Made by a program: the position numbers and the translations under genes. From positions 124,001 through 188,000 of the forward strand of contig SNVD02009909.1 in assembly GCA_013180625.2 (NCBI GenBank): a stretch of 64,000 nucleotides of DNA, read 5' to 3'. This DNA is from Boswellia sacra (taxonomy: Eukaryota > Streptophyta > Magnoliopsida > Sapindales > Burseraceae). Under the pieces are notes generated by a model that worked only from the letters and a program-made list of their open reading frames with translations, was not told the origin of the DNA and did not search any database. Positions 13,500 to 59,805 of this stretch are shown here, piece after piece (position 1 is the stretch's first letter; every line of letters starts with the position of its first letter).

Positions 13500-13563
13500 T
13501 GGCTACAATAAAATTCGAGATGGAACAATTTAATAGCAAAGGTGGTGTTGGGAAAGAGTGATT
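13500..13563 (+). pseudogene. gag start remnant of the LTR element
   Basis: ATG at about 13500 opens MATIKFEMEQFNSKGGVGKE and then meets TGA. The paralogous internal region (from 14964) is better preserved and runs on through RFEIKVEYYSDRDSETSG to about 15175 (DLIQIKYT). The first dozen residues look like a Copia gag start; the remainder is not a gag I recognise and might be foreign sequence. Confidence 0.5.
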
Positions 13564-13792
13564 TAGATTAAGGTGGAGTATTGTTCAGATTGTGATCCAG
13601 AGACGAGTGGAATAGATGAAGAACACAAAGAGATTTATGAGAAAAAAGTGTTGGAATGGTTTAGGAGGATAGTTAGCAAGTTCAAGCAGTGATTGGACTT
13701 GATCCAGATCAAATATACTTGATGCCCCGAAGGGCTAGTGGAGAGCAGCAATTGGAATGAAGAAGGAAAGTTCGAAATCAAGATCTGAAGTG

Positions 13793-14030
13793 GTTGCGCT
13801 CCCACGCAAGGTGAGTTGCATGCCGGCACAAGTCTGGCAATAAAGTTGCACTCTTGCGCAAGTCTGCCAAGAGGCTTATGCTACCACACAAGGTATGTTG
13901 CGCTCTTATGCAAGTGTTATGCTCCTGCGCAATGTGGGTTGCGCCGCTGCGCAATAGCCATGGATTTGAACAACACTTCAGGCAAAAATATGGCACTCCT
14001 GTGCAACAAAGGTTGCGCACCTATATGACA
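13793..14030. repeat. degenerate palindromic TTGCGCTC..GCGCAA repeat cluster
   Basis: At least seven imperfect copies of a motif like TTGCGCTCYTGCGCAA, each nearly self-complementary, lie in the first internal region. A matching cluster lies at about 15247-15470 in the second. Copies are separated by 10-25 bp. Confidence 0.65.
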
Positions 14031-16364
14031 ACGTGGACTGGAAATCCTTCTTCAACGTGGAATCAAGAATGTTTAAAGACAAAAATAAGGTGACGACTGT
14101 TATGTGTGTTTTTGTCTTGTTAGAATATTAAACAATAGAGGATTTGTTTCTAGATTAGAATTAAAACAAATTGGGATTTGTATCAAACTAGGAAGTTAAG
14201 TTTGATTGTAATTTGTTTTAATTAGGATAACCTAGGTTACTCACAGTTGAACAAGAAAATTGAAATAGGAATAGTTTTGGTCATATTTCTAGTCTAGGAA
14301 TAATGGTTAGACTAGGAAAGCGACTCTTAGCCCTATATAAAGCCTTGTATGTATGAGTTTGGAGATATCGAGAAATCGATCGGGATATCAAGAAATTGAT
14401 CAAGTAGAGAGAAGATGATAATAAACGTTTTTTGAGCCTTATGAGGCGGCAAAAATGTCAACGTTTGGGTCATCCGAAAAGCTACGATTGGAGTCATTAA
14501 CTGTGAGCAGGATAGAGATCTTAGAAGCTTCGGTTTGGGATTGTAAACCGTGAGTATAGATCGAGTACCCGTAGAAGTTATTCTTTGTTAGTCTTTCCTT
14601 GAAAGTATACATCATAGATTCGGTGGTAATCTTGGGATATATACATAGGAAGTCTGTTAGTTTTTCATTAGAGGCATATATCAAAAATTGGTGGTTATCT
14701 TATCGATATGCATAAGGAGGCTGTAAGGTTAAATCATTGTTATTGTTGTTGATATTCTTATTTTTCTCTATTATTGTTTATTGGAATAAAGTTGATGCTG
14801 AGATCTCCAAAGTGGACTTAGGCTTAATTGGCCAAACCACTATAAATCCAGTGTTCTTATCTTCTTTATTCTCTTGTTTGCTTTCTTGCTTGTGGTTTCG
14901 TCATAATTTTGTCAATATCTTGGATTGAACGCTTCCGTAAAAAGCCAGAAATTCATAACAATAAAATTCGAGATGGAACGATTTAATAGCAAGGGTGGTG
15001 TTGGGAGAGAGCGATTTGAGATTAAGGTAGAGTACTATTCAGATCGTGATTCTGAGACTAGTGGAATAGATGAAGGACACAAAGAGATTTATGAGAAAAA
15101 AATGTTGGAATGGTTTGTGAGGACAGTTAACAAGTTCAAGCAGTGCTTAGACTTGATCCAAATCAAATACACTTGATGCCTCGAGGCGCTAGTAGAGAGT
15201 AGCAACTGGAATGAAGAAGAAAGTTCAGAATCAAATTTGAAGTGGTTAATGCTCTCCCCTAAGGTAAGTTGCGTGCCTGCACAAGTATGGTAGCAAAGTT
15301 GCGCTCTTGTGCAAGTCTGCAAGGAGGGTTGCACTACCGCGCAAGGTATGTTACGCTCCTATGCAAGTGTTACGCTCATGCATAATGTGGGTTACGCCCC
15401 TGCGCAATAGCCATGGATTTGAACAATGCTTCATGCAGAAATATGGCACTCCTGCGTAATAAAGGTTGCAGCCTACACCACAAAGTGGGCTAGAAATCCT
15501 TATTCAATGCAGAATCAACAATGTTTAAAGACAAAAATAAGGTAGAGATTATTATGTGTGTTTTTGTCTTGTTAGAATATTGGACAATAGAGGATTTGTT
15601 TCTAGATTAGAATTAAAACAAATTGGGATTGTGTCAAACTAGAAAGTTGAGTTTGATTGTAATTTGTTTTAATCAGGATAATCTAGGTTACTTATAGTTG
15701 GACAAGAAAACTGAAATAGGAAGAGTTTTTGTCGTATTTCTAGTCTAGGAATAATGGTTAGACTAGGAAAGAGACTCTTGGTCGTATATAAAGTCTTGCA
15801 TGTAGAGTGTAGAGATATTGAGAAATCAATCGGGATATCGAGAAATCAATCAAGTGGAAAGAAGACGGTAATAAACGTTTTAGGAGCCTCAGGAGATGAT
15901 CCGTGAGTAGGATCATGATCTTGGAAGCTATAGTTTGGGATTGTAAATCGTGAGTACAGATCGAGTACCTATGGAAGTTCTTTTCTATAAGTCTTTCCTT
16001 GGAAGTATATATCATAGATTTGTGGTAATATTGGGATATATATATAGGAAGTCTATTAGTCTTTCCTTAGAGGCATATATCGAAGATTGGAGGTTATTTT
16101 GTCGACATGCATAGGGAGGTTGTACGATTAAATCCTTATTATTGCTGTTGATATTCTTGTATTTCTCCGTTATTGTTGATTGGAATAAAGTTGCTGCTGA
16201 GATTTCCAAAGTGGACATAGGCTTGATTGGTCGAACCACTGTAAATATGTTATTCCTATCTTCTTTATTCTCTTGTTTATTTTCTTGCCTGTGGTTTCAT
16301 AATAATTTTGTCAATATCTCGGATTGAACGCTTCCCCGAAAAGCCTAAAATTCATAACACATGC

Positions 16365-17453: not shown

Positions 17454-17570
17454 CACTACAAGAATATTTTTCATATTTGTCACTTTGCATTTTTTTTTAT
17501 TTGGCAGTTTTTAAAAAAAGTGAGAAGTATAACATTGGTTTAGAAGTCAAACCCGTCTATTTATCATATT
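17454..17570 (+). mobile_element. CACTA 5' terminus (same family as 6143-11750)
   Basis: CACTACAAGAATATTTTTC followed by CATATTTGTCACTTTGC, ATTTGGCAGTTTTTAAAAA and AGTGAGAA aligns over about 100 bp with the left end of the element at 6143. No right end (CTTGTAGTG) was found before the AAP pseudogene, so the element is truncated or its right end has decayed. Host-derived sequence follows (18003-18525). Confidence 0.75.
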
Positions 17571-18002
17571 TGTCATATTTGTCTTTATTCAATCACATAT
17601 TTATCACATTTTTTAAATTGTGATAAGTATGTGAATTCTAAAATTTATGTAAAATTATAGTAATTTCTTTTTTTTATTTAGATAAATATTAAGAAATTCA
17701 AATAGTAATATAAATATTTTGTTCAAAAAATTATGATTTTATGGTTAAATATAGATATATTAGAATTTAAAATCTTTAGCTAACAATTTATAAATAATAG
17801 AAAAATTAAATAATATATAATGGTTAAATATAAATTTATTAAATTTTAAAATCTAAATGCACAAATTATACGTAATAAAGAAATTAAATTTATTAATATA
17901 TTTAAAAAAAAGGGATACGGTGTCGTTTTGGTGGGTTTAAGGATATTTAATCCTAAGTGACTCTATCACCTTAAGCAACTAAACCTAATTCAACCTTAAA
18001 TC

Positions 18003-21125: not shown

Positions 21126-22244
21126 CTTATCTCCTCATCTCGGCTCATCTTCGCCACCGACACAAGCAGAACAAGCGCGGCAGATCGTTCTCGTCGTCGG
21201 TGCCACCGTCACCAGCCTTGACATCAGCCGCTTGCCCGTCAGTTCCGGCCTTTCTCGACCTCACCACCTCCTATCTCGCCTCTTCCTATCTCCTCTCATT
21301 CGTCGTCGCTGATCTGCTCAACTAATACCCGGTTGTGTGAGGTAACAGCTGAATGAATATATTGGGTTTTTGTGGATTTATTCAATGAAAAATGTGTGGA
21401 GATTGGTGTGTTTGCTGGTGGTAGTGGATGTTGGTTGCTCAAAATTCGGCGGTTTGTTGCGGAATTGATTTGTTTTTTTGTGTGTATAAAAATGAAATTG
21501 ATGGCTGAATTGAGGTGATTATTGGGTTTCCCTTGAATTGAAATGAATTGGTGAAATGAATTGGCTGAATTGAGGTGTTTTTTTGTGTGTATTCGGCGGG
21601 TTGTTGCGAAATTTGGTTGTTTTTTGTGCTTTAATTTAGATTGATTGCTCACACACGGTTTGCCTTTTTTGGAAATGCATTTGCTTTTTGTTTAACAATT
21701 CATTTCACAAAGATACAAAGGATGACAAATCTGGAATTCAGAATCAAGATGGCTGATGTGTGAGTGTGATTGGGTATCTGGATTGATTAATGTGTACATT
21801 TTATACTTGATTATTGCTATTGCTGTTATGCTCTTCCTCAAATTACAGTGTTAGTTATTGTTTTTGTTCTGATGGTGTAGTATTGGTCTTTTGCTGTGTT
21901 TGGTTGCTGAGAAAATGGCGGAGGTTGAAAAATGATTCTGGGAGTTGGATTGACGTCGATGAAGTTTGACATGTTAGGTGGGCCAAGATGGGTTTTCAGT
22001 TTCCAGAGAAGAAAAAGAAGTGAAACTATTTTTGGTTTATAGTTGCCGGAAAGTAGCCTAGGTTTATCATTGATTTTTTTTTCTTTTTGTAAAATAATAA
22101 CAACAAATCGTATGAGTTGGATATGAACCTTCCTGTGGATATATATTGTTTGCTATGAAAGAGCCTTTAGATTTCGTGATTTATTAAACATATAATTAAT
22201 TAATGTATGTATGTAAATTTGCATTGAAAATTTTTATAAAATCT

Positions 22245-22327
22245 CCTCTGAGGATGACTAAAAAATACTTTCGTTCTTCCGAGATGACATTGTGCGGAAA
22301 AGTTTTTGGAGACCTGAACTGAAGAGG
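22245..22327 (+). ncRNA. candidate C/D-box snoRNA, copy 1 (18S rRNA guide)
   Basis: An 83-nt unit closed by a terminal stem CCTCT/AGAGG. Box C is imperfect (AGGATGA), D' imperfect (CCGA at 22279) and box D perfect (CTGA at 22319-22322). Upstream of D' lies ACTTTCGTTCT, complementary to the conserved 18S rRNA segment AGAACGAAAGT. The fifth base from D' would pair with the A before CG, fitting 2'-O-methylation of the kind guided by U59/snR54-type snoRNAs (from memory). It lies in the presumed 5' untranslated intron of SmD2, on the same strand, a common plant arrangement. Confidence 0.6.
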
Positions 22328-22490
22328 CTCTTTCAATGCTTGATATATATCTGTAAATTGGTAATTAGGATTTTCTTTTTTTTTTTTAATTTCTAAAGGC
22401 TGGTTATTAGTTTATATAGCTCTTTAGCTTTCTTTTTTTTTTTTTTTAATTGTGGCTGGTAAATTTATCAGATTGGGTATGGAGATCTTC

Positions 22491-22572
22491 TCTCTTATGA
22501 TGTTGAAATGAAAACTTTCGTTCTCCTGAGTTTTAAAATGCTGAAAATATGTGGAGACCTGAGCTGAAGAGA
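22491..22572 (+). ncRNA. candidate C/D-box snoRNA, copy 2 (18S rRNA guide)
   Basis: An 82-nt paralogue of the unit at 22245. The terminal stem is TCTCT/AGAGA, box C ATGATGT, D' a perfect CTGA (22526-22529), box D CTGA (22564-22567). The guide ACTTTCGTTCT is kept in the same register before D', while the flanks have diverged. A second shared stretch, TGGAGACCTGA, precedes box D and may be another guide whose target I could not place. Conservation of boxes and guide with drift elsewhere is what selection on a guide RNA would leave. Confidence 0.65.
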
Positions 22573-22681
22573 TTTCTTAGAAGATCTTTATCGTCATTTC
22601 ATTAGCAACTTTTATTGAGTTTGGAGCATTGTTGTTTTCCTCATCTCATTCACCCTTGAGATCATTTGCTGGGTCAAATAG

Positions 22682-26581: not shown

Positions 26582-28318
26582 CTATACATACCATGCTGCT
26601 GTGAGAGCATTTCTATGTACTATGCTACACTGTACAAATTAATTAATTGCAAATATATAATTTTCGTGTTTTCCTTCTCTCTTTTCAACCTCTATGGGGT
26701 TGACAAATATAAGGAAAACCACAGCTGTATGTGTTTCCAGATGCACCAAAGCAACAAAATCGACTGTTAATTTCTTTCTTACGTCGTTTTATTTTAATTA
26801 ATTTTATTATTTTCTCATCGATACAAACACAGTCAATGATTTCTTTTTCTTTTTATTTTTAAAGAAAAAATATCATTATCATTATTATTATTATTTATTT
26901 TTTGCTAAGATTTTCTAATAAATATGGAAATATTACTAGAGCAAATATTTCCACACCTTTTGCAGGTCCAAAAAATGTGCTTATGTGTGGCATGATGCAA
27001 TATTCATTGTTATGGGCGCCATGATTGGCTTTACTATTACAACTGCCTCTAGCATAGTGTGAGCTCCGCCAAAAAAAATTCTCAGTGAAAATAAATAAAA
27101 TTTCTTCTCTTCTCTAACGTAATAAACATTTAAATGCTTGTCTAATATTGCTTTTATGTTAAAAATTTGTAGAGCAACATCGCTTGTATATTCATTAATT
27201 ATCACCAGTCCTATTGGAGCACAGTACAGTATGTTTTATACTCTTTTTACGAAGTTTCTCTCAGGACTTTGACGAGGTGAACTTGGCTTCACCAAAAGGC
27301 ACATAACGCAAATTGTGGAGTCTCGAGAAATCTTAGTATGCTTGTATATGGGGCACTGGAAATTATTCTATCTCAATGTCCCAACTTGGAAAAGGCAACA
27401 TTTGTTTCCGTTGTGGAAACAATGGCATCGGTGGCATATGCACTAATAGCTTTGGGTTTATCAACCGCAAAGTTCTTTTCCCACCCGCAAATTAGAGGAC
27501 GTTTAATTATTGATAATGTGGGCGAGGGTGTACCTTCAACAACAAGGGTTTGGCGTGTTTTTCAAGCTCTTGGAAACGTTGCAGTTTCTTACACTGTCGC
27601 TATCTTACAACTCGAAATTCAGGTTAAATCTTCTATATATATATATATAACCCGTAATGTATTACTTAATTTTTATATCGTTGGGAAGGCGTGTCCTTGA
27701 ACAAGATTGTTGAAATTTTGGTACATGCAGGATACATTGAAGTCACCCCCACCAGAAATTGAAGTGATAAAGAAAGTGATACTTTATGCCATTGGTCGAA
27801 CAACACAGTTCTTCATATACTTGGGATGAATGGGCTTTATGGCATGTGGAAAAGATGTTCCAGGAAATTTTCTCAATGGATTTCTTAATCCATTTTGGCT
27901 TGTAGATTTTAGCAATCTTTTGGTAATTATACATTTAATCGGAGCTTACCAGGTACTTCCTCACTTAATCTATATACATATCCCTCTTTAAACGTTTAAG
28001 CAAATGCTTTGTTGAGGTTAAAAATAGTCTGAAACATTATATAGTTGCGACCTTACCTGGAATTTTCATTTAACTTTTGGATTAAGTAGTTTTTTAACAA
28101 GATTTTAAATACCTACATCGATAGATGTCAAGAAAATACTAGGCTTTTACATTCACGACTTCCTAGCTTGTAAAGAGTTAGGTTTGATTTTTTTCAGTTT
28201 TGTCTGATACATTATTGAAATAATAATCCATTGCATATATAAACTTCTTCCCAGGTATTTGCTCAACCAGTTTTTGCAATCCATATGAGAAGTAGCTTGC
28301 ATTAAGGAGGCCAACATT

Positions 28319-28655
28319 AAAGAAGTCAATCTGTGATAAAAGGGAAGCGCAAAGCTTTCATTGATGAGCAATGCATTATATAAAAATACAAGATGAATCT
28401 TATGGAAAGTACATTAATAACAAAGCTTTATACACGATAACAAATCAGCCAGCAAAGAGATTTTGAGATTTTTTGTAATCAAGAAAAATGGGATTTGTTT
28501 TGCTCTTCAGACTTGGATTTGTATTTCTCTTCTTCTTGATTGTTTTCCTCGTCAGACTTGGATTCGTATTTCTCTTCTTGAAAACTTCCAAGTACACTTG
28601 GATTATATTCCTTAACAAACATTATTCTTCAATAGAGTTTACACCATATGTTTTC
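28319..28655 (-). mobile_element. foreign insert in AAP pseudogene exon 6, resembling an mRNA 3' end
   Basis: Where the intact copy encodes the stretch after LRWPTSFLN, this copy has about 340 bp of unrelated DNA. On the minus strand it reads a short frame with a repeated acidic-basic motif (QEEKYESKSDEEN, EEEKYKSKSEEQN), a stop near 28485, then AT-rich sequence like a 3' untranslated region. It looks like the tail of another gene moved here, perhaps by transposition or during break repair. No terminal repeats or poly(A) tract are obvious. I cannot name the gene. Confidence 0.5.
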
Positions 28656-28984
28656 CAGCCATCTTCAACAAATACTGCATTCGCTTCACACTAACCAGGC
28701 TTCTCCTACGCACAATTTTCGTTATATTTGTAACAGCTGGATGTTCTCATTCTTCAATGCAGTTCTTGGTGTTCTCGGCTTAATTTCTTTCTGGCCATTA
28801 ACTGTCTCCTTTCCTCTAAGCATGTACGCGGCAAACAAAAATCAAGAAGGGAAGCTCCACTGGGATGATCTACCAAATCTTGAGCGTCATTTGACTGGTT
28901 ATTTCAATCATTTGTTTTGTTTGTTCAACTGCAGATATTCTAGATCGTCTTAAGCATGCATAATTGTTTCATATTGAACCCTAG

Positions 28985-30040
28985 ATAGCAGACATAAATT
29001 TCTGGGTTCTTTTTTTTTTTTTTCTTTTTTCGCATCTTAGTGTATACAAGTAACAAGCTTTTGCTTCCAAGTTCCAACTTACTATATATACTTCTACTAT
29101 TTAAAATATTACATTAGGGCTAGCAATTTGCACTCTCATAAATGCTCTCAAAACCCATTTCTTTTTTGCACTCATTTACATTATAAAAGATAATTGTTTC
29201 ACTCTACGTTTTTTAAATGACAAAACATACTCTTGGATAAATATATCTTAAATCCTTTCCTTTACACCACTCTCTACAACTAATCATGTATTGTGGATTG
29301 AACTAAGATTCTTGATCATGATTCATATTGGTTTATATTGCATTCTTTAGTTTCTTTTTTCCTTGCATAGCTAATCTGTTGAGAAATTTCCATTGCAATT
29401 TGGGGCTGCTTGTGTTCTCTTTGTTGAAGGAGGATTGCAGTCTCAAGTTTGGGTTGCAAAGATTGAAACAAATAATTTCAAATTGATGAAGAAAATATCG
29501 AATGAAGTTTGTTGTCTAGTATAGAATTTCAAATTAATGAAATTAAATTTCTTCAGGATTTATCAGGATACTGCACATTCTAGTGTACAGAGTGATTCAA
29601 ATTTTGTCTTTCTTTAATTAAGAGATCCCTTTTTTTTTTGTTAGAATCATCCCATAAAATGTTATTTTTCATGATATACTCAAATATATACTTCATGCAA
29701 ATGAAATTGTTTAATAAAAGAGAAATTAGGTTTGTACATAGCATGGATGTATATTCATTAGGTATACAAAATAAAGATTTTTTCATTTTTCAATTTATAT
29801 TCATGAAGGTACTCTTAGCAACTTCATGGACTACTTTGTTGAATTCAATTGCTAGGTGGTTTTATCATCAATCATTGACGCAAGGATATGTTAATGGCCT
29901 CCATTTGTTGTACATAGATCTATGTACTTTCAGGATTTTTGTCGCATTTTTCTCCATTTTCTAAGTATCTGTTTATTAGCAGCATAGATAATATATATAA
30001 TCTAGTGACAATATGTGAAGTTAATGGCTCAACTTGCATA
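28985..30040. other. intergenic DNA
   Basis: No gene is supported. Several ORFs of 70-110 codons are low-complexity and match nothing recognisable. Confidence 0.35.
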
Positions 30041-35434: not shown

Positions 35435-38410
35435 TACATTCAATTTAGTGGTCTAGTTAAATCTCAATTTAATCAATCTTTTCATATTCTACCCTTGATT
35501 TATTTCTCACTCTTGATTTTTAGGGAACTAGATCAGTTGAAGGTATAATGCTTCAAAAAGCATTAAATTTAAGTGCAACTGGTGAAGCTTTTGAAAAAAT
35601 GATTAATTTGACATTGCTCAAAATCCATCATGTGCATCTTCCTAAAGGCATTCAATACCTTTCTAACAAATTAAGTTTGCTTGAATGGCATGGATATACT
35701 TCAAAATCCTTACCACCAAATTTGCAACTGGATAATATTATTGAACTTGACATGAGTTATAGCAACATCAAAAATCGTGGAAGGGAGCCAAGGTAAGAGC
35801 AATATTTTTAGTAACAAGATATATATAGTGAAGATATGGTAAACAAAACTAAGGAAAAAAAAACTAATTTCTTTGTTGCTGCTTTTTGTGAACAGTCTTT
35901 GAAAGAGTTGACATGCATCAAATTGAGAAATTGTCAGAAATTAACCAAAATGCCTGACATCACAAAGATCCCAAACCATGAGGTGGTAATTCTTAAAGGA
36001 TATACAAAGTTGCGTGAGATTCACCCATCTTTGCTACTTCACAAGAAGATCACTCTTTTGAGTCTCAAAAACTGTGCAAATCTTAGGACATTTCCAATGA
36101 AGATTCATATGGAATCTCTTAAAGGTCTAGATCTCTCAGGATGCCCTAACCTTGAGAATGAGGAAGAAGAAATTTTGGAGGAACTTGATATAAGGGGAAT
36201 TGTTGGGAGACAACTAGTACTGTCTATGTTTTCTATGCAGAATCTTAGAAAGTTACTTTTTGGTAGATGGAAGGGACGACAATCAAACTCGTGCTATTTT
36301 CGATGGTATTGGCAACTCTTTGATGGTTTGATACGAAGAAGAAATTTAAATTCGGGGACTTTTAGACTACCTTCTTTGTCAGGTTGTCATTTTTTAAGAT
36401 AGCTGGATCTTAGTAATTGCAATATAAGGGAAAGAGCAATACCCTTTAAAATTGGGGAATTACAATCATTATGGTTGTTAAATCTAAGCAAAAATAGTTG
36501 TGTCCCTACCTGCAACCATTATTCATCTGACTTACCTTTACCATCTTTTCTTAGAGGATTGCGAGAAGCTTCAATTCCTACCAGATATTCTATACCATAT
36601 AGAAACTATTCTAATAAATGGATGTTTTTCACTGAAGAGGTCTTTAGATGCATTAAGATTATCAAATTCAAATGCATGGGCTACAAATTGTTTCATTGTA
36701 AATTGCCAAAAGTCCCGTGATGGCAACACAACCGCATTTTCAATGCTAAAAGATGGCTTGATGTCCACTCTCATATGGGGTCGTGATAGGTCCCTCCAGT
36801 ATTTTGCTCAAGATTTGTTTCACATCATTGTTCCTGGAAGTGAAATTCCAGAGTGGTGCCATCAAAAAGAGGGTTTTTTGATAACAACAAGAACTCATCC
36901 ATATTTGTATAAAAGTAGTAAGTTGATCGGATATGTCATGTGTTATATTTTTGGTGTCCATAAACATTAACCAATAACTTCCAGAATCGGAGTTTCCACG
37001 CATCAGCTTAGACTTGGCATTTCTATTGTTGATGATGATATCTATGGTGCCAATATTCTATTTTCTGCATTTCAAATGAAGTTTAGTGACGTTATGTTCG
37101 AGCATATTTGGTTAGCTTTTGTGTCTCGTAGGGGTTACATTAGTGAGACATAGGAAACATATAATCCTGTGACTTTCCTATTCGGAATAGACTATGGTCC
37201 AAGATTGGTGATAAAGAGGTGTAGAGCCCGTCCAGTGTATGAACAAGATATTGCCAATTAGTTCGACCAATCTGCTAGCTCTACTATTTGGAATAAGAAT
37301 AAATTCTCTTATGAAGATTTTGATGGATCAACCATCAAGTCTTATGATGTCTCAATATACAGTCAATGTCACAGCTTTTATGAGGAAACAAAAGTTGTAG
37401 CCATCAATTTTATATATGCTCATCTGAATGAATTCATAAGTCTGCCACTTTAAACATCTTCAATGTTACCAAAGCCTAATAAACTTTATCTAACGCATTT
37501 TTAATAGACTAACTTCATATTCTTTTTTTGTGTTGATTTTTTACTTTCATATTGCTGGTGTCACACGTTGCACATGATTAATTGTCATCATGTAATAAAA
37601 ACATTAAAAGTGGATATTTTCCTAATCTTATTTATTTTATATAGATATTTTATATTAGGAGAATTTAACTAGAATATGATAAGTTAGGATTTGGTATCCT
37701 AGTTGAATAGAAAGTTTTATATTTGGATTAATTATCTCTTATTATATTAGGATATTATTTCAGTATTTTAGTTTACTTATGAGAGTATATTATCACTTCT
37801 TATAATGTTTGATCATTATCTAAACTTTCCTTATGAGTTTCATTGAGATTCTATAGGATTATAATGAGGATTGCAATTGATATCAAATATTATATAAAGC
37901 TATCTTCATAGCTTTTGGAGTGGGGCATTCAACGCATTCACGGCAAATTGAGAGATAGTAAGCAAGAGCAAGTTTGCGTGCATCTTTTATTTATTTTTTA
38001 TGTCTTGTGTAAAGCTTTAGGTTTTGGTTAATTTTTATAAGTCGTGTGAGCTTAACGGAGTTGAGTAATCACATAAGTCCGTACTTACGGGTGTTGTGTT
38101 ATTCTTAACTATGTTTAGTTAAGATAGTCGTGACAAAAAAAAAGAGCAACATTAGAAAAGCGTGTGAAAGATTATGTTTGTGATCGAGGTTGATCAAGTT
38201 TACATAGATTATATTAGTGAGTGGGTGGGTGTCTACCACTATAAAAAGTCCTAAGTCGAGGGTAAACACATACAACATAGTGGATTGCAACTCTTGTTGT
38301 CCGTCGATGTAGGTTGGTTATAATCGAACACGTAAAAATCCTATTCCAATATACGTTATTGTTTTCAATTATATTATTCATAACTACCATACACTACAAA
38401 AACTTTCAAT

Positions 38411-40090: not shown

Positions 40091-42237
40091 TTTTAAAGAA
40101 AAGGCAAGTCAGTTTTAGACAGTCACATAAGACACGACAGGTTTGGGTTAAGAAACATGAGACTTACTGCAAAGTTAGTGTACTTAATGTTTCTTTTAAT
40201 GATGATTGTCCTTATTCTAAACATGTGATAGAAAATAAAAAGTGTTTGAAAGATTTCAATCAGACAAGTGATGACAAAAAGTGTTGTTTAAAAACTTATT
40301 GAATCAAAAAATTATCTGCATTGAGCATGTTTCATCTGAGAATCAAATAATTGACCTGTTCATATAAGCACTAAGATGCATTGAGATTTAAAAAACTGAC
40401 AAATGACATTGGCACTTTTCAGTTACTTGAGTTATAATAGTGTTTAGTTAAGTTGTTTATCTATATAGCATCATTAGTCTACATATATTTAAAGCATGCT
40501 TGAGCTATTTTATTGGTATAATTTTACTGGTAATTTCATGTCAAATGCAGAGAGGGCTACCAGTATATGATATATGAAAGCCATCCATTAAGAATTACTT
40601 CAACGTATCTTAGAAATTTTGAGGTCATCCACTCAAATAGAAAATCGCTACCTCTATACATGTGTGTTAGTTATTATAGTCATTGAGAAAATTTATATTG
40701 AGATTAACTTTTGTTTGTGTAAGAAACATGCTCAGGTTGACCACTCAATTGAATTAAGTGATAAAATAATGAAAACATACTTATGTTTGATATTTATCAA
40801 TAGCTCTGATACATACCCAGATAGTTCTATTATGTGAATTTTAACTGTTTTCAATTATAGTTTGTACAACTTACGATCAGTGCTGTATGTCTGGCTCAGT
40901 ATGATTCTCTTGAGTGTATTTTGACATGTTAAAAGCACCATGTCAGCAAAATTGATTTGAGGAGGAGTTTGTTTAATTGCGGGAATACTTGATTTAATTA
41001 TTCTCTTGGTTTTTAAAATTTTTATTTTCATATTTATGCATAAATTGAAAGGGAGAACATTTAGTCAGGGGGAGTTTTTTTTGTTATTTTTTATTTTTTA
41101 CTTTGGCACTTGTTAAGAAAGCAAGGGGGAGAAGTATGGATGTTTCTGGTGTTATTTGGTTGTTTCTTTGTTTTTATATGCTGTCATTATAGTCTTCATT
41201 TTTGTGTTTAATTTTAGTTGCATTATATATACTCATGTATTTTTTTAGAAACATTTAGATGTTTTCATCACAAAATGCCAAAGGAGGAGATTATTGGTAT
41301 CACACGTGGCACACATGGCATTTGCATTGCACATGATTAATTTGTCATCATGTGATAAAAACATTAAAGGTGGATATTTTTCTAATCTCATTTATTTTAT
41401 ATAGATATTTTGTATTAGGAGAATTTTAACTAGAATATGATAAGTTTCGATTTGGTATCCTAGTTGAATAGGAAGTTTTATATTTGCATTAATTATCTCT
41501 TATTATATTATGATATTATTTAAGTATTCTAGTTTACTTAAGAGAGTATATTATTACTTCCTATAATATTTGATTGTTATATAAACTTTTCTTATGAGTT
41601 TCATTGAGTTCTACAGGATCATGATAAGGATTACAATTGATATCAAATACTAAATAAAGCTATCTTCATAGCTTTTGGAATGGGACATTCAAAGTATTCA
41701 AGGCTAATTGAGAGACAACAAGCAAGAGCAAGTTTGTGTGCGTCTTTTATTTGTTTTTTATGTCTTGTATAAAGCTTTAAGCTTTGGTTAATTTTTTTAG
41801 GTCGTGTGAGCTTAAGGGAGTTTAGTAATCACATGGTTCTGTACCAGTTACGAGGGTTATGTTATTGTTAACTGTGTTTAGTTAAGATAGTCGTGACAGA
41901 AAAAGAGCAGCATCAAAATAGCGTGTGAAGGACTATGGTTGTGATTGAGGTTGATCAAGTTTACATGGATAATATTAGTGAGTGAGCAGGTGTCTACCAT
42001 TGTAAAGAGTCCTAAGTCGAGTGTAAACATATACAATAAAGTGGATTGCAACTCATGTTACCCGTTGATATAGGTTGGTTATATTTGAATCACGTAAAAA
42101 TCATGTTCCATATACATTATTGTTTTCAGTTATATTATTCGTAAGTACTATACACTGCAAAAACTTTCACATATATACTTTTTTGTCACATCAGTTTTGT
42201 ATTGAATTTTATAATTTTCTTCTTTATTTTCAAATAG

Positions 42238-44228: not shown

Positions 44229-45299
44229 GATCAAATGAGGGATGGCAAAACAACCCGGCCAGGGCGGACCCAGAAAACCCAGTTATCCAGGGCCAGGGAA
44301 TTACCCAAAAAACCAAGGTAATTGGCCGGGGTCGGGGTATGATTTTTTTGCCCGGTCGGGGTCGGGGTCGAAATGGAGGTGTTCCGGGTCGGGGACCGAG
44401 GATTGAACCCGGGGTATACAATTAAAATTAAAAACTATATAATTTAATCCATTAATTTTCAATTCTTAAATATAACCCCTTAAGCCCATAAGCCATTTTA
44501 CTAGAATAAGTCATAAAAAAATCTAACAAATTCAACCCAAGTCCAAGCCCAGCACCAGCCCACCTTTTGTTTTTAAAAATTAAATTAGTTTTAAGAGAAT
44601 GCAACAAGGGAGATTCTAACCCTTTCCTTCAATAAACAAGGCTAAGGCACGCCACCGCTGAACTAGGTCCAACTTTGCAATTAAAGAAGCAACATAGGAA
44701 ACCTTAAAATATTATTCGTTTAAATAAATTAAATGATTTCTAAATATTTAGATTACAGGGGATTCAAACCCAAGTCCCTATTATAAACGATAAGGCAGTG
44801 GACTGCTGGGCTACAACCTACTTTGGAGCAAAAAACGCATGCAACATATATATAACCAGAACCAAAAAGAATCAAAATTTCAAAAAAAATTATACAACCC
44901 GGGTTTTAATCCCAGGTTATTGGAAAACCCGGCTCCGCCTGGGGTACACCAACCCCGGTCCTAGAAAAAAAAATTTCAAAGAAATATAAAATAGATCTTT
45001 TATGTCACTAATTTTATGTCAGTTCTTAAAAGAATGACAAATATAAAAACTCCAACTTAAGTCAAACCCATATGTGTCACAGTACACAAAAGGCGGGCTA
45101 AGTTTGATGTCAAAAGTTTTTTAATTGTGACACATATTAGTTAATATAAAAGGAAAAATTTTCTAAACCCTAAAATCCATCCCCATCGCCTCTTCTCTGA
45201 AATCCGATTCCATCGCCTATTCACCTTGTCTCTCAAAAGCGATCGCCTCTTCTCTGAATACCATCGCCTCTTCGCCTCTTCTCTGCAAGGATTTTAGCG

Positions 45300-45461
45300 T
45301 TCCCCCTCCTGTTGATGACTTCTAAGCCGCTAAGAGGCGCGCCGAGCAGATTACTGCTCGCCTTCTCAAATCAGCTCCTGCCGACGCCAAGCACCATCGA
45401 GTCGAGAATAGCTCCGGCACCTTCGATTCCGCTGAGAAAGGCTTCAGCTCCCATCCCACTG
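45300..45461 (+). pseudogene. captured exon of a FUBP-like KH-domain protein
   Basis: The frame VPPPVDDF-stop-AAKRRAEQITARLL, then KSAPADAKHHRVENSSG, then EKGFSSHPTG, ending at a GT donor (45462), matches the region before the first KH domain in plant FUBP-like proteins (typically VPPPMDE..AKQKAQEIAARLLN..AKRPRVDNG..GFSS). A CAA-to-TAA change is visible after DDF. A CT-rich leader-like stretch with repeated CCATCGCCTCTTC precedes it (45170-45300). The KH domains are absent. This is the first of four host fragments in the element. Match made from memory. Confidence 0.65.
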
Positions 45462-45497
45462 GTATTATTCTTGCCTATGCATAACAAACAAAATGAC

Positions 45498-45794
45498 ATG
45501 GTCGAAACTAGACGCAGCTCTTCCTCCTCTTCCAAATGCTCTCTTCCTCCTTCTCAAGCCTCTCCTCCTCCCTTCAATAAGCGATCTAAGGTTCTTTCTT
45601 TTTATCAATTCGTTTTTATGCTTTCTTTTTAAAGAGGAAAGATTTGAATCTAGGGTCTGATTTCTGTTCTGTTTGGATTGAATTTTTTTTTGGTGAAACC
45701 CTAGGTGAGGGAGGTGTCTTCGTCGACAAACGACGCTCCGGTAGTGGCGCCGTCGCCGCCTGAGACCTTGAAGACCGGGTCTAAATCTCAATAG
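45498..45794 (+). pseudogene. captured first exons of an FHA/AAA-type ATPase
   Basis: ATG at 45498 opens MVETRRSSSSSSK, then SLPPSQASPPPFNKRSK, with a donor at 45591. The next exon (45705 on) reads VREVSSSTNDAPVV..PPETLKTGSKSQ and stops. MVETRRSSSSSK..SPPP..KRSK is the hallmark start of the plant nuclear AAA ATPases related to Arabidopsis At4g02480. More exons of what looks like the same gene recur at 49545-50330, on the other side of the myosin block. The joint to myosin falls at about 45790, inside an exon. Confidence 0.75.
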
Positions 45795-48700
45795 TTACAA
45801 CAACATTTCAATCAGGTTAGTCTTCTGAACAAGTTAATGTAACATGTTACTTTTGAGACAGACACAACTAATTTTTGTTATTTACAACTGTATGCTTGCA
45901 GCATGTGCTTAAAATGGAGCAGGAAGATTATAGTAGAGAAGAGATAGACCGGAGCTACATAGAGTTTGTTGATAACCAAGATGTGTTGGATCTTATTGAA
46001 AAGGTTTTAATATTTTTCTGTGCGACCATTTAGCTAAGCATTTTGTGTTTCCTTTTCTTTTGTCTGCTTTCTGGGCTTCACCTATTAGGAGTTGCATTCC
46101 TACAATCATGTCGTGATGGATTATTATCATCAGCTCCTATGTAACAAGTGTGCAAATTGCTTTTTGACAGAAACCTGGAGGAATAATTGCACTCCTAGAC
46201 GAAGCCTGGTATGCTCTGTTCTTTGCACTCTGTTTTTTAGATATTCTTTTGAGATGACTGAAGTTCTTTTCGTGGTTGTTTAATGCAGCATGTTTCCCAA
46301 GTCCACACATGAAACCTTTGCGTAGAAGTTGTATCAAACATTTAAAAATAATAAGTGCTTTATCAAACTGAAGCTTTCCTGCACTGATTTTACCATATCA
46401 TACTATGCAGGGAAGGTAAAAATATCCTGTCTTTGTTACATAAAACTTTTTCTTAGTTTTACAAATTTATTTTAATAAGAAATGTAAAATTTTAATAAGA
46501 AATGTAAAATTTTATGCAATTTTCATTAATTTTTGGAATCTTTCTAAACATTGAAGGTGACATATCAAGCCAATTACTTTCTGGACAAGAACAAAGATTA
46601 TGTGGTGGCTGAACACCAAGCTCTGTTGACTGCTGCGAAGTGCCCTTTTGTGGCAGGTCTATTTCCACCACTTCCAGAAGAATCATCAAAATCATCTAAA
46701 TTTTCTTCCATAGGATCACGCTTCAAGGTAACTGTGTCTCTTCTCTTTTCTAGTTCTCTTGTTTTCTTTGTCTTTTGTTATGGTGGTAATGCTCTGAGTT
46801 CAACTTGTCTAGGGTTGAGTTCTATATTTTAGCCATTTTAGTATTGGTCTGCATGTCAAATTGGAGGGTTATATTTACATTGCTTAGCTTTTCTTCACAT
46901 GTCATCCCACAAGACACAACTTCCATAACATTTCAATTTTGTAAAAGTCTCGCTGAGCCTATAGTATGCATTCAACTCTTAGGTATCAATTCTCAATCTG
47001 ATTTGTCCTTTCCTTTATAGATATGGTGAATTAATTGTAATCTGGTCTTTATTTTCCTTTCAGAAAATTTAGATTAAAGTTTTTGAGTTTAGCTTATGGC
47101 AAGCTTTCACTTTGAACTTGACTTGTGGATGTTTTTGTCTTTATGCCATTGTTCCTTCCACTTTTTGAAATTGAAAATTGATGAATGCTTGGAAGTGAAG
47201 TGCCAATAAGGTGCCCTTTGTTTGTTGATAGTTTTAGTAATGAAGTTGGCTCAATTGAGTGTGGTACACTTTTTTGAATCTTCAAATGTTTGTTCCCGAA
47301 ATGAATGTAATTATTCTCTAATTCCATTCAAGTTTGTCTTATATCATGCTTCCTAGTCAGTTTATGACTGATATTTGTGCTCTGGTTATGCCTTTTGCTT
47401 CTAGTTCTTCGGTGGTCCAATGATTCCTTCATTCCTTTTTTGTTGTAATCTTTTTTATTATAATAGAATAGTGCACTAAATGGTTGTTATATATCCAATT
47501 GTCTAAACTTCAGTTACAACTTCAATCTCTGATGGAGACCTTGAGCGCAACAGAACCTCATTACATCAGATGTGTGAAGCCGAATAATGTCCTAATTAAA
47601 GCCTCTTATTTTTTAGAATTCCAATGTCATCCAACAATTACGTTGTGGTGTGAGTAGATTATGCTTACTGCATTCTCTTCTAGATTCTATTTCTTGCCAT
47701 TTTTTCCCGATTCTCCATAATAAACTGGTTTTCTTTTATACTTTTAGGGCGTTCTTGAGGCCATTAGGATCAGCTGTGCTGGTTATCCTACTCGGCGTAC
47801 CTTTTGTGAGTTTGTTAATCGTTTTGGTCTACTTGCTCCTGAAGTTTTGGAAGGAAAGTAAGTCCCGTTAATATGCTAACTCCTGCAGACTTTCTGATGA
47901 TGATGGAGACTAATACAATTGTAGGATAAATTGCTTAATTTTCATTAGAACTCCATGTACTTTTCTTCTTCCTTGAACAGCTACGATGATAAGGTTGCAT
48001 GTCAGAAGATTCTTGATAAAAAGGGACTGAAAGGATACCAGGTGATTGGCACTTCCCTGATTGTTTTCATCATTCCTTGTTACTCTACTGCTTTATTAGT
48101 TTCGCTTGATATTTTGCTTTACTAATTGCTGCTACATTCAATATTATTAATTGTGATCCCTTTTATTAAGTTTTCTACATTTCTTTCCATGTGTATTAAT
48201 ACACAACCACCAAAAAAAGGGTTCTATCCTTTGCTTATATGTATCATTACATGTGAATGATTTTCTTGATGCATGCTTGCTTTGCAAATAGGTAAGACGA
48301 AGGTTTTCCTGAGAGCTGGTCAGATGGCTGAGCTGGATGCTAGGAGAGCAGAGGTGCTGGGAAATGCAGCCAGAACCATTTAGAGGCAAACCTGTACCTA
48401 CATTGCTCACAAGGAGTTCATCTCATTGCGTAATGCTGCTATCATGCTGCAATCTTATCTCCGAGGTATATTCTCTCTTGGATTTTGTTAAATGTGCCTA
48501 CCTCAATTAGGTGTGGAGTTCCATTTTCAACTATTTTTGCTAGGAATATGCTACATCAATGACAAAAGAATTGAAGTTGCATCGATCATGAGAAGTCTAA
48601 TATATGTTTCTCATATGGATTTTTGGGACAAGATGTAGTCATCTTGACTTAGCAAATATATAAAATAGTGTTTGAAATGAAATGAGATCCAAATAGTGGT

Positions 48701-49385
48701 GAACAAAATGGCAAATTGTTAGAATTATTTTATTTTCCTTGTCTCCATATTCATTTTAAGTATGGCTACTTGTTACTTTTCCTGATTTTGACTAGGTTCT
48801 ATATAGCTAATCCATTTTGTAACTCTAATATGGTATGCTAACTTCTTGCTCTTTTCAGGTGAAATGGCCTGCAAACTGTATGAGCAGCTGCAACGCGAAG
48901 CTGCATCTCTGAAGATCCAGAAGAATTTTCGACTGTATGTTGCTAGGAGTTCCTATTTAGCTGTTAGGTCATCTGAGATAATGTTGCAGACAGGCTTAAG
49001 AGCAATGGTTGCACGCGATGAGTTTAGGTTAAGGAAGAAAACTAAAGCTGCTATCATCATTCAGGTAGAATCACCCATCTTCAACTTAAGTATCTGTTTT
49101 ACGTGTGTGCGCTCGTGTGTATATTCATGGAAATTGCAATTTTTCTAATGAGATAGATTAATCAGCGTTTGTGGATCTTAAAATAAGATTGGAGTTTTTA
49201 TTTGAGGAAATTTATTATGACATACATTACAACACCTTTGATTTTTATCTACCTGTCATTTACAGGCTCACTGGCGTTGCCACCAAGCTTATTCTTATCA
49301 CAAGAGACTCCAAAAAGCAACTATTGTTTCTCAGTGTGGCTGGAGGTGTAGAGTAGCCATAAGAGAGCTCAGAAAGCTTAAAATG
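45795..49385 (+). pseudogene. captured myosin XI segment (motor C-half, converter, IQ motifs)
   Basis: About eleven exons of a class XI myosin, the actin motor of plant organelle transport. In order: LQQHFNQ (45795), [20 protein letters not shown] (45902-46003), KPGGIIALLDEA (46170), CMFPKSTHETF-stop-KLYQT (46290-46420), [32 protein letters not shown] (46558-46728), [20 protein letters not shown] (47514-47600, then a frameshift), [19 protein letters not shown] (47750-47859), YDDKVACQKILDKKGLKGYQ (47981), [24 protein letters not shown]-stop (48292), and IQ-type exons to 49385 ending ELRKLKM. The ATP-binding N-half, coiled coil and cargo-binding DIL domain are missing. In-frame TAGs near 46323 and 48380 and the shift at about 47607 show decay. 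Confidence 0.92.
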
Positions 49386-49544
49386 GTTTGATTTTAATGC
49401 ATAGTTTCTTTTTGCACTTGTCACATTTTTTGATGCAACATGTGGTTGCAAGAGAATAAGAGATGAAGCTAGCTTTTCCTTTATGTTTACTTTTCCTTAG
49501 AAATAAAGTAAGATAAATAGTTCAATTCTGAGATTTTTATCAGG

Positions 49545-50330
49545 ATAAAGCAGCTAATATCACGGGTGGGTCTGCAGTAGGCTCACAGGCCCTGCCAAAG
49601 CCAGAAGCATCTACTGCATCATGCAAAAATTACACTTTTAAAAAAGGCATGTTGTTTATTTTGTTTATTTTTTTTCCCTTGGAAATACTTGATTATGTTT
49701 TGGCATTGTTTGGACGCCATTAATCTCTAGCTGGATTGAAGATTATAAATTATCTTTTCAGGTGATAGACTGAGGTTTGTTGGTAACGTACCTGCTGGAA
49801 CTTCCCCCGTGCAACCTAATTTAAGGTATATTATTGCACAATTTGTAAGATTTCGTAACTTCTTGTTTTGTTATTAATACATTGATGGCCATGAAGGATT
49901 GTTGTACCTCACTAGATGGCCTCCATGACGGGCCTTTTCTATTATTATTTGAGTTGTGTTGTCCAGTTAATGTATCTATAATTTCTTTATAATTGTTTAT
50001 GCATGTAATATCTTTTTTAACCTTATTAGTCCTTTGGCCTTGTGTTTTTGGTAGTTTTCTCCCCTTGTTTATTTTATTTTATTTAAAAAAATCTAAACAA
50101 CATACTAAGACGTTGATTTTTGATTTATGTGATTTTGTATCCTTATTCTTTTACGTTGGGCAAATGGTTTCATTTATTTTATACATGCACTTTTTCTGTC
50201 TTTGATTCTAACTGTTCTCCCTATTTTAATGCAGGGGACCCATTGTTAGGCTTCGAGGCAGAGTAGTCCTTCCTTTTGAAGAATTGGAAAAGTTGCATGC
50301 AACAATCTCCTTAATCTAGTATCCATTAAT
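49545..50330 (+). pseudogene. captured middle exons of an FHA/AAA-type ATPase
   Basis: Three exons: about 49545-49648 (ITGGSAVGSQALPKPEAST..YTFKK), about 49763-49827 (GDRLRFVGNVPAGTSPVQPN), and from about 50235 (GPIVRLRGRVVLPFEE, then a stop at 50317). YTFK-GDRV-FVGN..LRGP..RGRV-LPFE is the conserved block upstream of the AAA domain in the same ATPase family as the fragment at 45498, so the myosin block appears to sit inside this gene's fragments. The catalytic AAA module is absent. An in-frame stop precedes the synthetase exons. Confidence 0.65.
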
Positions 50331-50599
50331 GAAGTGCTTCATGAATGGTTCTGTTACCCCTCTAGATACTCTAAACGTGAACCTTGGTGTTAACATTTAT
50401 CTTACTTATACCTTTTGGTCTAGCTATGTTCATGTTCTCACTGTCATCAACATGGACAAGCTACTTAGTTTTTTTTTTTTTTTAAATGCCAGCATCATAC
50501 ATCCCTTGCCTCATTTCTTTCATGGGTGTATAGAGCCCATATTCATTTAGAAATATACTATTGTTGTTTGAGTTGCTCAATTGTGTTGCCATTTTTTAG

Positions 50600-52748
50600 G
50601 TCCTTGCTATTTTGGAACTTTACAGACGTGTTTATGAAGAATTCTTGGCCGTTCCTGTTATAAAAGGCAAGAAAAGTGAGCTAGAGAAGTTTGCAGGCGG
50701 GCTTTACACGACAAGTGTGGAGGTAATTTTTTACTAACATGTAAGTTTTGATTATCTTTCTTTGTCATATTAAATGAGGTTGAGATGCATGCATTTATCA
50801 TTGTGCTTCTGTCTGAATCAAGAACATAAATGTTTGCCAGGCATTTATTCCGCACACTGGTCATGGTGTACAAGGTGCAACTTCACATTGCTTGGGCCAA
50901 AACTTTTCAAAAATGTTTGAGATAATCTTTGAAAATGAGAAGGGAGAGAAGGCTATGGCCTGGCAGAACTCTTGGGCATACAGTACTCGGACAGTAAGCT
51001 TTTATATCTGTCGCTTGAGTTGAATGATTTCACTAAATCATGCTACAGTTACAAATTTAAGTTTTTTATTATATTTTTGAAGATATAAAACACTGAGTTT
51101 TCTTAAGTTATTATTTAATTACTGTTGGTAGCTTAATTCACTTTCTTCTTGATAAATTCTATAGAAAATATTCCTTTCTGTCCATTCTTTTGCTAGGCTC
51201 GTCTCTTATTACTTTGCCGTGTAATGTAATCATGAATTTATTGTGTCATTAAGATAATATTTCATGCTGTTATTGGTGATAGTGGGTATCTGCTATCAGT
51301 TTGGCATTTTACTTTTCTGATTTGTTTGATATTTGCACAGCTTGGGGTAATGGTGATGGTTCATGGCGATGACAAAGGCCTGGTGTTGCCACCCAAAGTG
51401 GCATCTGTGCAAGTTATTGTAATTCCTGTGCCTTATAAAGATGCTGACACTAAAGGAATTTTTGATGTCTGCACTGCCACTATTGAAACCTTGGGTGAAG
51501 CAGGTATTCGTGCTAATGTGGACTTTAGAGACAACTACTCTCCTGGATGGAAATATTCACACTGGGAAATGAAAGGTGTTCCTCTTAGGATTGAAATAGG
51601 ACCAAAAGACTTGGCAAATAATCAGGTGAGCAAGAATCTCATTTTAATTTGTTGGACTTCTCTTCTACATTCATGCTATGGTTGTTGATCTGCTATTGAT
51701 CTCATAAAAGTTACGTGCTGTTCACCATGACAATGGAGCAAAAGTTGATCTGCCTAGGGACTCTTTGGTTAAGCAAGTAGAAGAACTTATTCAGAATATT
51801 CAAGACAGCATGTTTGATGCTGCAAAACAAAAACGAGATGCTTGCATTCAAACTATAAAAACTTGGGATGAGTTTGTGGAGGCTCTTGGCCAAAGAAAAA
51901 TGATCCTGGCTCCATGGTGTGATGAGGAGGTACATCAATGAAGATTCAACAAGGGAGACCTTGAAATTTGTTTTTGCATTAATTACTTGATGGTATCTCT
52001 TTTAATGTTTTAAATCAAAAGTTCTGGTTTAGGTTCTTTGTTTGTTTGATCTTCTATGACTCCCTCATTTCCTCCTCATGTTCTCTGTAGTCATAACTTG
52101 ATTATTTATCAATATTTGCACTCGTCAGTTTTGGCATTAATTTTTTACTACTATTTTCCTTTAGTTGTACTATTGCAGAATATTTATCAATATTTAGTTG
52201 TACTGGTCAGTGTTAAGCATAGTAGATGTTCGAGATCTTCTCACTCATGAAGCATGGAATGCCTTTTCTATGAACCTTGGCTGATTAAATTTTCTGTCTG
52301 TTTAATTTCTCTTAGGAGGTGGAGAAAGATGTGAAAGCGCGAACTAAGGGTGAGATGGAAGCAGCTAAGACCCTTTGTTCCCCATTGGACCAGCCAGAAA
52401 TGCCTAAAGGTACCATGATAGTGTCATTATTCGTACTAACAGTGAACTTCTAAATATTTCTATTTTAGTTGCATTTATGGAGTTGAAGGGGAGGCAGCTA
52501 GAATACCGTGTCATTTTTTGTTTGCCATTGAATAATATTTGTGGATTCATGTAGTGGAGCTTTTTTCTAGTAAATTGTTGCTGCATTAGGGAGTGGGTTT
52601 TGTGGAAATGCTTGCTTATGAATGGATAGCATTAGCCATTAATATTACATTTTTTCTGATGTTTTTATTATTAAATTTTGTAGGTAATAAATGCTTTGCC
52701 TCTGGGAAGCCTGCAAAGAAGTGGACCTACTGGGGCAGAAGTTACTAG
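50600..52748 (+). pseudogene. captured C-terminal half of cytosolic prolyl-tRNA synthetase (frame still open)
   Basis: Six exons, 50600-50722, 50841-50993, 51341-51625, 51711-51929, 52316-52409 and 52684-52748, all with GT..AG borders, join to 939 nt with no internal stop (312 codons). They cover part of the class II catalytic core ([20 protein letters not shown], then [11 protein letters not shown]), motif 3 (YSTRTLGVMVMVHGDDKG), the anticodon-binding domain (VASVQVIVIPVPYKDAD, YSPGWKYSHWEMKG, IEIGPKDLANNQ) and the C-terminal domain with the eukaryotic/archaeal-type end WTYWGRSY. The N-terminal part, including motifs 1 and 2, is missing, so it should not charge tRNA. Listed as a fragment because it lies in a transposon and lacks its own start, but the open frame is notable. 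Confidence 0.88.
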
Positions 52749-52869
52749 ATTTCTCAAGGTCTTTTGACATAGCATTTCCTCTCTTCGTTTGATTTTTGTA
52801 TTGTCTATGCACATCTGGTTTGAAACACAGGAATTTCAACAGGATGTATTTCTTTATAAAATTATTGTT

Positions 52870-53350
52870 ACTGAAAACCATGGGATATATAAATTTTTAT
52901 ATGAAATGACACAAATGTCGTACTTGTGTCACTCAGTAAATGACTCGTGTCTCACACGTTTTGTGTCACTCGGTGAATGACATATATTATAATGTCGGCC
53001 AGAAAACGACACATATAATTTTTATGTGATGTTCTTTTTGTGTCACTCAGTGAATGACAATAAATATGTTTCAACTAGTGAGTGACACAATTTAATTATA
53101 TATGTGTCGTTTGGTGACTAACACCACATTTGTGTCACTTATTGGCAGACATATTTGGTACAATCCGACACGTATGACAAATATTTGTTCCATACATATC
53201 TGTTTCTAAATGACACATATCTTGTGTTGATTTGACCAAGTGACACGTATAGGAATAAGTGACAGGTCCATTTATGTCGCACGAAAACCGACATATATAT
53301 TGATGTATGTCAATTTTTGCCCGACATAAAAAGCCTGTTTTGTTGTAGTG
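52870..53350. repeat. subterminal repeats of the nested CACTA element
   Basis: About fifteen short motifs of the type GTGTCACTCAGTGAATGACA, TGTGTCGTTTGGTGAC and GACACATAT occur in both orientations, forming many small inverted repeats up to the CACTA right end at 53350. Confidence 0.75.
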
Positions 53351-53441
53351 AATTTTCGGGACTAGGGCTTGCAATTGAAGGCCGGGGCCGGGGGCCGAAC
53401 CATCGACCTCGGCCCCGAGTTTTACCATCCCTAGATCAAAT

Positions 53442-58767: not shown

Positions 58768-59805
58768 GTTATGTCCAGGGATGGCAAAAATTCGGGGCCA
58801 GGCCGGGGACCCAGAAAGGTTTTTTAATCTCCGTCCCTGAAAAATTCTTCAAAAATTCCAGGACTAAACCGGGGCCGGGGAATTTAATTCCGAGGCTAGA
58901 GAATTGAATTCTTCGGATATGTACCTGGATTTTTTAATTCTATTTTTTATTTAAAAAAATTGTACTTATATTTGTTTTTACAAGCAAATACAAGGCCGTT
59001 ATAGTTAAATATGATACAAAAAGGTAAAAAAAAAAAGTTAAAATAAGTAACCTGCCAAAAACGCTCGACAAAACTCGATAGCGCTCGATACGACTCGACA
59101 TGTAAGTGTCGAGTATCGGATGATGTATCCGACACTCATACGACACTTAATGTCTTCTAAAATAGACTGATATCGAGTGTCGGATACATCATCCGACACG
59201 ACTCGACACTAATGTCGAGTGTCGGATGCATCGTTGAGTGTCGGATGCATCCGACACTCGATGTTTACATGTATGTTGTGTCGGATTCACAACCGACACT
59301 CGTTATCTGTCTATTTTCTAAGACATCGAGTGTCGGATGATGCATCCAACACTCGACACTTACATGTTGTCGCGTGTCGGATTATGCATTCGACACTCGA
59401 CACTTACATGCCGTCGAGTGTCGGATGCATCATCCAACACTCGATGTTTACATGTATGTTGTGTCAGATTCACAACCGACACTCGATATCAGTCAACTTT
59501 CGAAGACATCGAGTGTCGGAAGATGGATCTGACACTCGACACCGACATGTTGAGTCGTGTCGAGCACTATCGAGTTTTGTCGAACGGTTTTACAGTTTGC
59601 TTGTTTATATTGTCGTAAATTAAATAAATTAAATAAAATGTATCTTTATATTTATTCCGGGCCGAGGAGCCTAGTCCCTGGCCCTTGCCCGGTCCCAGGC
59701 GTTCTCCGGGATTCCTCTCCTCGTCCTCGGCTTAAATCCCCAAAATTCTGGGAGGAGCCGGGTACCTGGATCCATCCGGATACAATTGCCATCCCTAGTT
59801 ATGTC
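58768..59805. mobile_element. 1-kb non-autonomous hAT element
   Basis: Starts CAGGGATGGCAAAAATTC at 58776 and ends GCAATTGTATCC..-type, giving TAGGGATGGCAATTG on the minus strand from 59797. The perfect 8-bp duplication GTTATGTC flanks it (58768-58775 and 59798-59805). GC-rich subterminal blocks (CCGGGGCCGGGG) match those of the 9.2-kb hAT element, so both belong to one family. No protein is encoded; the core is a palindromic satellite. Confidence 0.93.
59060..59580. repeat. palindromic satellite inside the hAT element
   Basis: Dense array of TCGAGTGTCGGATG and its complement CATCCGACACTCGA, often meeting as GAGTGTCGGATGCATCCGAC. A larger unit of about 183 bp is visible: GATGTTTACATGTATGTTG recurs at about 59260 and 59443 followed by TTCACAACCGACACTCG. 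The ORFs here read the repeat (RVSDASSNTRHLH and similar) and are not genes. Confidence 0.88.

Follow-up and report, generated by a model that had tools for sequence, protein, structure and literature searches.

Two DNA transposons, one probably nested in the other, with a cargo of host gene fragments in Boswellia sacra

Between positions 44229 and 53441 of a 64,000-nucleotide stretch of the Boswellia sacra genome (GenBank assembly GCA_013180625.2, contig SNVD02009909.1, positions 124,001 to 188,000; the whole stretch is hereafter the window), the ends of a hAT transposon enclose CACTA-type sequence and exons of unrelated host genes. We are highly confident that this 9.2-kb composite arose by two separate nested insertions, with the hAT element arriving first and the gene-filled CACTA element later. 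The locus is a further example of the already known plant transposons that carry scraps of genes, and one in which the order of events, hAT then CACTA, can be read.

The outer element displays the 8-bp target-site duplication of the hAT superfamily, GATCAAAT, in two perfect copies (44229..44236 and 53434..53441), and without these duplications the element proper spans 44237-53433. The octamer occurs at 13707, 39824, 44229 and 53434 of the window, and the last two occurrences exactly bracket the hAT ends. Directly inside the duplication lie GAGGGATGGCAAAAC and, in reverse complement, TAGGGATGGTAAAAC, identical at 13 of 15 positions; the consensus for such ends is presumably of the CAGGG/TAGGG type. 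When the window was scanned for 8-bp direct repeats directly outside 15-bp inverted ends (at least 13 matching bases, 200-15000 bp apart), this candidate was the sole one of its kind. The outer layout by itself is not overwhelming, because 10 of 60 first-order simulated windows yielded some similar structure. With the added requirement that at least six of the matching bases be G or C, as in this hAT, the figure fell to one in 300 simulated windows.

The source genome provides the decisive comparison. The left-end sequence GGGATGGCAAAAC is present at 498 places (223 + 275) in 638.6 Mb, against a single place for the reversed control, and therefore a chance origin of the hAT ends no longer comes into question. 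The original prediction had described perfect 8-bp duplications and hAT ends while allowing that the end repeats might be fortuitous; the sequence, the genome count and the family structure shared by the relatives all uphold the description and speak against chance.

Relatives were sampled at 24 of the 498 places (1.3-1.8 kb each), four of them (L001-L004) chosen for having both exact ends close together and the other twenty (L005-L024) being the first that remained among the 100 places listed. At least ten (L001, L002, L003, L004, L006, L008, L011, L013, L016 and L024) combine the two arms in a single short element (0.80-1.36 kb), and seven of the ten measure about 0.8 kb (for instance 796 bp in L001, 811 in L003, 802 in L004, 813 in L013 and 801 in L016). 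Their 8-bp duplications are perfect in L001, L004, L008 and L016, carry one mismatch in L003, L013 and L024 and two in L002, and do not match in L011, nor in L018, which matched the left arm and one half of the right. The remaining sampled loci are diverged, incomplete or extend past the sampled sequence. In none of the 24 is there a match to the material that separates the two arms in the window (44986-53350).

The left arm (44237..44985, plus strand, 749 bp) begins with the end GAGGGATGGCAAAAC and aligns over 44238-44978 to L003, the best relative, at 83.8%, and to L001 and L004 as well. The right arm (53351..53433, plus strand), with the end CCATCCCTA, aligns over 53347-53433 to the same best relative (85.6%), where its match joins that of the left arm at base 965. 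All seven relatives that were aligned across this split point (L001, L002, L003, L004, L006, L013 and L016) are continuous through it, with a gap shortly past it in L004 and L016; identity to the window hAT reaches 80.7-85.1% in five of them, 66.7% in L002 and 62.7% in L016. Given that these relatives are short and unbroken where the window hAT is split, the latter is an ordinary non-autonomous member of its family, some 0.83 kb long and interrupted by a single foreign insertion. The claim of the original prediction that the hAT element carries the exons is thus not sustained, the cargo lying inside the CACTA element.

This insertion, an 8,365-bp CACTA-type element at 44986..53350 with no strand assigned, is recognised by its terminus, its subterminal repeats and the continuity of the hAT relatives at the insertion point, in agreement with the CACTA sequence announced by the original prediction. 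Its 3' terminus is exact, CACTACAACAAAACAGG on the minus strand ending at 53350, and adjoins a 3' subterminal repeat zone (52850..53350) with five copies of TGTGTCAC. The 5' subterminal zone (44986..45180) bears two copies, at 45073 on the plus and at 45127 on the minus strand. All seven copies in the window thus fall within the two zones, delimited for counting as 44960-45180 and 52850-53351, which make up 1.1% of the window and were picked after seeing the sequence. For the looser motif TGTGTCA[CG], seven of eight window copies lie in the zones, with a nominal P of 2e-13 that serves as a guide only, since the zones were defined post hoc. The soybean Tgmt* element is similarly asymmetric (PMC2613891), its left side having few repeats (4 within 159 bp) and its right side many (24 within 732 bp).

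No transposase was seen inside the CACTA element when the plus strand was read by eye, and of the 24 minus-strand stretches that reach 50 amino acids, the ten longest gave no Pfam transposase at E 0.1, the one sub-threshold match being to DUF3127. Within these scans the element lacks a transposase of its own and carries fragments of host coding genes, clearly so for myosin and prolyl-tRNA synthetase (ProRS) and tentatively for the other pieces, as is expected of a Pack-CACTA. A Pack-hAT, with gene fragments between hAT ends and no other element around them, does not describe the locus, because CACTA subterminal zones enclose the cargo and the two hAT arms by themselves add up to a complete member of the family.

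The CACTA insertion boundary near the right end of the hAT is well supported, and its target-site duplication is likely the trinucleotide AAT (44983..44985 and 53351..53353), because the hAT relative L002 reads TTTCGAAGAATTTCCC where the window has TTTCAAAGAAAT. Several observations weigh against our reading of the inner element and its load. The terminal inverted repeat is present at the 3' end alone: the 5' terminus, placed within 44966-44990, is without its first bases, and for the sequence ATAAAATAGATCTTTTATGTC that follows the hAT flank TTTCAAAGAAAT, an alignment by eye with CACTACAACAAAACAGGCTTTTTATGTC of the 3' end starts no earlier than about the eighth or ninth base. The AAT duplication requires a left flank altered by two substitutions and one inserted base, and the alternative AATTT (44972-44976 and 53351-53355) would set the CACTA start at 44977. 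Published lengths of CACTA duplications include both possibilities, 5 nt in rice and maize (PMC8903248) and three bases (PMC2613891). Finally, the identity of two of the four cargo genes, those of the FUBP-like and ATPase-like pieces, is tentative. The incomplete 5' end may reflect later erosion. A left CACTA end at CCTAGAAAAA was also considered and dropped, as the relatives show that stretch to be hAT sequence.

The cargo pieces that could be recognised are all on the plus strand, an arrangement with a chance probability of 1 in 8 for four independent pieces. Their exon edges were set by hand and then checked for splice signals. One of them is the C-terminal part of ProRS (50600..52748), whose six exons encode 312 residues and a stop codon, with no internal stop, GT and AG ends at all five introns and the terminal sequence ...KKWTYWGRSY. 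It matches PF09180 (E 3.6e-25) and PF03129 (E 1.1e-18) in Pfam and, over 312 residues, PDB 7v8k (E 2.4e-111) from residue 173 of 499 to the last.

The myosin block (45902..49385, plus strand) covers the motor domain in its later part, together with the IQ region, in ten further exons beyond a chimeric one. Pfam recognises the myosin head (E 1.2e-70; positions 401-679 of the 679 of Myosin_head) and IQ motifs (E 2.4e-12), and the closest PDB sequence is 7dhw (E 3.4e-123); we take the myosin to be of class XI. Nonsense codons interrupt the exons starting at 46289 and 48292, the reading shifts to another frame within the exon starting at 47514, and the splice acceptor before 48292 appears no longer to fit the expected frame. 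With two stops and one shift in the 417 residues read, the piece is a broken pseudogene that cannot encode a working myosin. The contrast between this broken myosin and the open ProRS may reflect a later capture of the latter, or chance.

In the chimeric exon (45705..45815, plus strand, by splice reading), the second ATPase-like exon gives way near 45791 to one of myosin, and the joint, with an in-frame TAG, is read directly as ...KTGSKSQ*LQQHFNQ. An exon beginning MVETRRSSSSSSK... (45498..45590, plus strand), without a Pfam match, is taken to be the first of an FHA/AAA ATPase-like gene; internal exons presumably of the same kind, unsupported by Pfam and PDB, lie at 49544..50283 on the plus strand, where the donor at 49647 is GC, not GT, and the third exon breaks off at about 50283. 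We assume that 45498-45590, 45705-45790 and 49544-50283 derive from one FHA/AAA ATPase family, an attribution to which neither Pfam nor PDB lends support. The same applies to 45308..45461 (plus strand), which has one in-frame stop and a GT donor and which we take to come from the N-terminal region of a FUBP-like protein. Pfam gave no KH domain match in this piece and one sub-threshold archaeal match (E 0.089). The stretch at 50284..50599, with no strand assigned, would contain the joint between ATPase-like and ProRS sequence together with the last part of a ProRS intron.

The original prediction had listed exons of four unrelated host genes in one orientation with introns kept. This holds for myosin and ProRS, on Pfam, PDB and splice reading, and so does the joint that it placed within an exon at about 45790. 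The FUBP-like KH and ATPase identities found no support in Pfam or PDB, and consequently the ATPase pieces said to lie on both sides of the myosin block remain unconfirmed.

In the history that we propose, a non-autonomous hAT of about 0.83 kb, belonging to a large family, would have inserted and created the GATCAAAT duplication, a step that is well supported. A non-autonomous element of the Pack-CACTA kind, already loaded with host genomic fragments, would then have landed near the right end of the hAT. The CACTA element would have acquired genomic DNA including introns, and in more than one step, because ATPase-like pieces occur on both sides of the myosin and a joint falls inside an exon; a second capture into a first, and with it the stepwise capture put forward by the original prediction, is plausible from the ATPase-like pieces around the myosin. 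Capture might have proceeded by copying errors during the repair of excision breaks, a suggestion quoted in PMC3260210, or, as PMC8903248 proposes, through neighbouring insertions being mobilised together. Because no transposase was seen within it, the CACTA element would have depended on an autonomous CACTA in trans, and it is probably immobile now because the tip of its 5' end is lost. By analogy with soybean Tgm-Express1, its cargo may give rise to chimeric RNAs.

Could the 9.2-kb composite instead have moved as one macrotransposon, its outer ends recognised by a hAT transposase that brought CACTA and cargo along? We find this unlikely. It would suit the perfect outer duplication and the outer ends alike at 13 of 15 positions, and large hAT composites able to move are described for maize (PMC3260210). 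However, the duplication is equally expected from a hAT inserting alone first; it marks the hAT insertion only and is therefore no proof that the hAT carried the cargo. At least 10 of the 24 sampled loci are complete short elements and none matches the insert (24 of 498 places), while gene capture by hAT elements is called rare in PMC3260210. The hAT movement of a CACTA unit invoked by the original prediction is accordingly not supported, and later nesting of a Pack-CACTA is simpler than hAT transport of the cargo. Still more doubtful is the combined proposal in which the hAT transposase moved the whole composite, with the CACTA and its chimeric cargo as freight, and the ProRS piece is still transcribed in a chimeric RNA. 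If it were true that the whole unit moves, one transposon superfamily would be spreading exons captured by another.

Several gene fragments on the same strand are typical of maize Helitrons, and a Helitron inside the element might have collected the pieces in one orientation. PMC3260210 lists Helitrons among the carriers of gene fragments. Yet a crude scan of the window for a hairpin with a CTRR 3' end found a single site, at 59212, outside the element and not beside the cargo, and the cargo is flanked by CACTA subterminal zones, which leaves this origin very improbable. The reading to which we give least credence, of almost negligible probability, is that the exons are genuine host genes and the repeats fortuitous. 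The ProRS piece does have 312 residues free of stops and five introns with GT and AG ends, but it matches 7v8k only from residue 173 of 499 onwards, the myosin match begins at 401 of 679 and suffers two stops and a frameshift, and different proteins are joined within an exon. The family-level evidence for the hAT, from the genome count and the relatives, largely refutes this reading.

In the history that we favour, the element that came to be nested in the hAT is of a known class (PMC1947982, PMC8903248 and PMC4290129). One of the same kind is Tgm-Express1, a 5.7-kb member of the soybean CACTA superfamily in an F3H intron (wp allele), which produces chimeric transcripts and likewise holds exons and introns of several unrelated host genes, five in that case (PMC1947982). 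The window CACTA differs in its 8.4 kb, in its position inside a hAT and in having no intact 5' end. With Pack-CACTA and other Pack-TYPE elements (PMC8903248), it shares the nature of a non-autonomous element with terminal inverted repeats and coding DNA; the window case is one nested copy.

On wheat chromosome 3B, 140 CACTA-mediated capture events were counted, with 17 captured genes possibly chimeric and 46% likely functional in structure, the rest being pseudogenes; there, unlike here, captures were detected as genes between two elements of one family (PMC4290129). Maize Ds and Ds-like elements resemble the window hAT as short non-autonomous elements with extraneous DNA, including nested transposons, and two Ds2 and nine Ds-l4 elements themselves contain gene fragments, whereas the gene DNA of the window belongs to the nested CACTA and not to the hAT (PMC3260210). 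The literature searches were not aimed at this locus, and we do not claim that it is unpublished. The locus adds one more case to the shuffling of gene pieces by plant DNA transposons and illustrates a general pitfall: when a target-site duplication encloses a composite, this is no proof that the outer element moved what it contains.

Around the hAT insertion, the window contains neither an empty site nor a second copy of the left flank, and matches to the joined flanks elsewhere all fall right of the join. Stretches of the left arm that resembled tRNAs by eye were rejected, as ARAGORN found no tRNA gene in 44229-53441 and Rfam no match in 44229-45300. The primer-binding-like sequence TGGTATCAGA occurs at 53476, 35 bases right of the hAT duplication; an old LTR may have ended close to the point where the hAT inserted. 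The same sequence stands at 13468, directly after the first of two long direct repeats (12614-13467 with 15553-16362, 82%), and the region 12610-16362 looks like an LTR retroelement.

Further possible CACTA-like sequences lie elsewhere in the window. At 11481-11750, a CACTACAAGAAAAA end (minus strand, near 11743-11750) adjoins tandem GGCGGT-bearing units, and at 59109-59562 tandem units contain TGTCGGATGCATCCAACACTCG. A 185-bp repeat (6143-6325 and 17454-17635, 83% identity), both copies of which start with CACTACAAGAAT, is perhaps CACTA end sequence.

The window also includes segments duplicated at 75-78% (3490-5655 and 26678-29028), with two open stretches of the first copy matching the amino-acid transporter PF01490, and a 0.85-kb direct repeat (37568-38408 and 41327-42169, 88%). 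An open stretch at 35815-36402 matches the LRR family PF25019 at E 1.1e-06, narrowly above the curated cut-off, and may be the final part of a resistance-type gene; next to it, 36488-36970 gave no match. Two snoZ159/U59 C/D box snoRNAs, their starts 246 bp apart, lie at 22244-22573.

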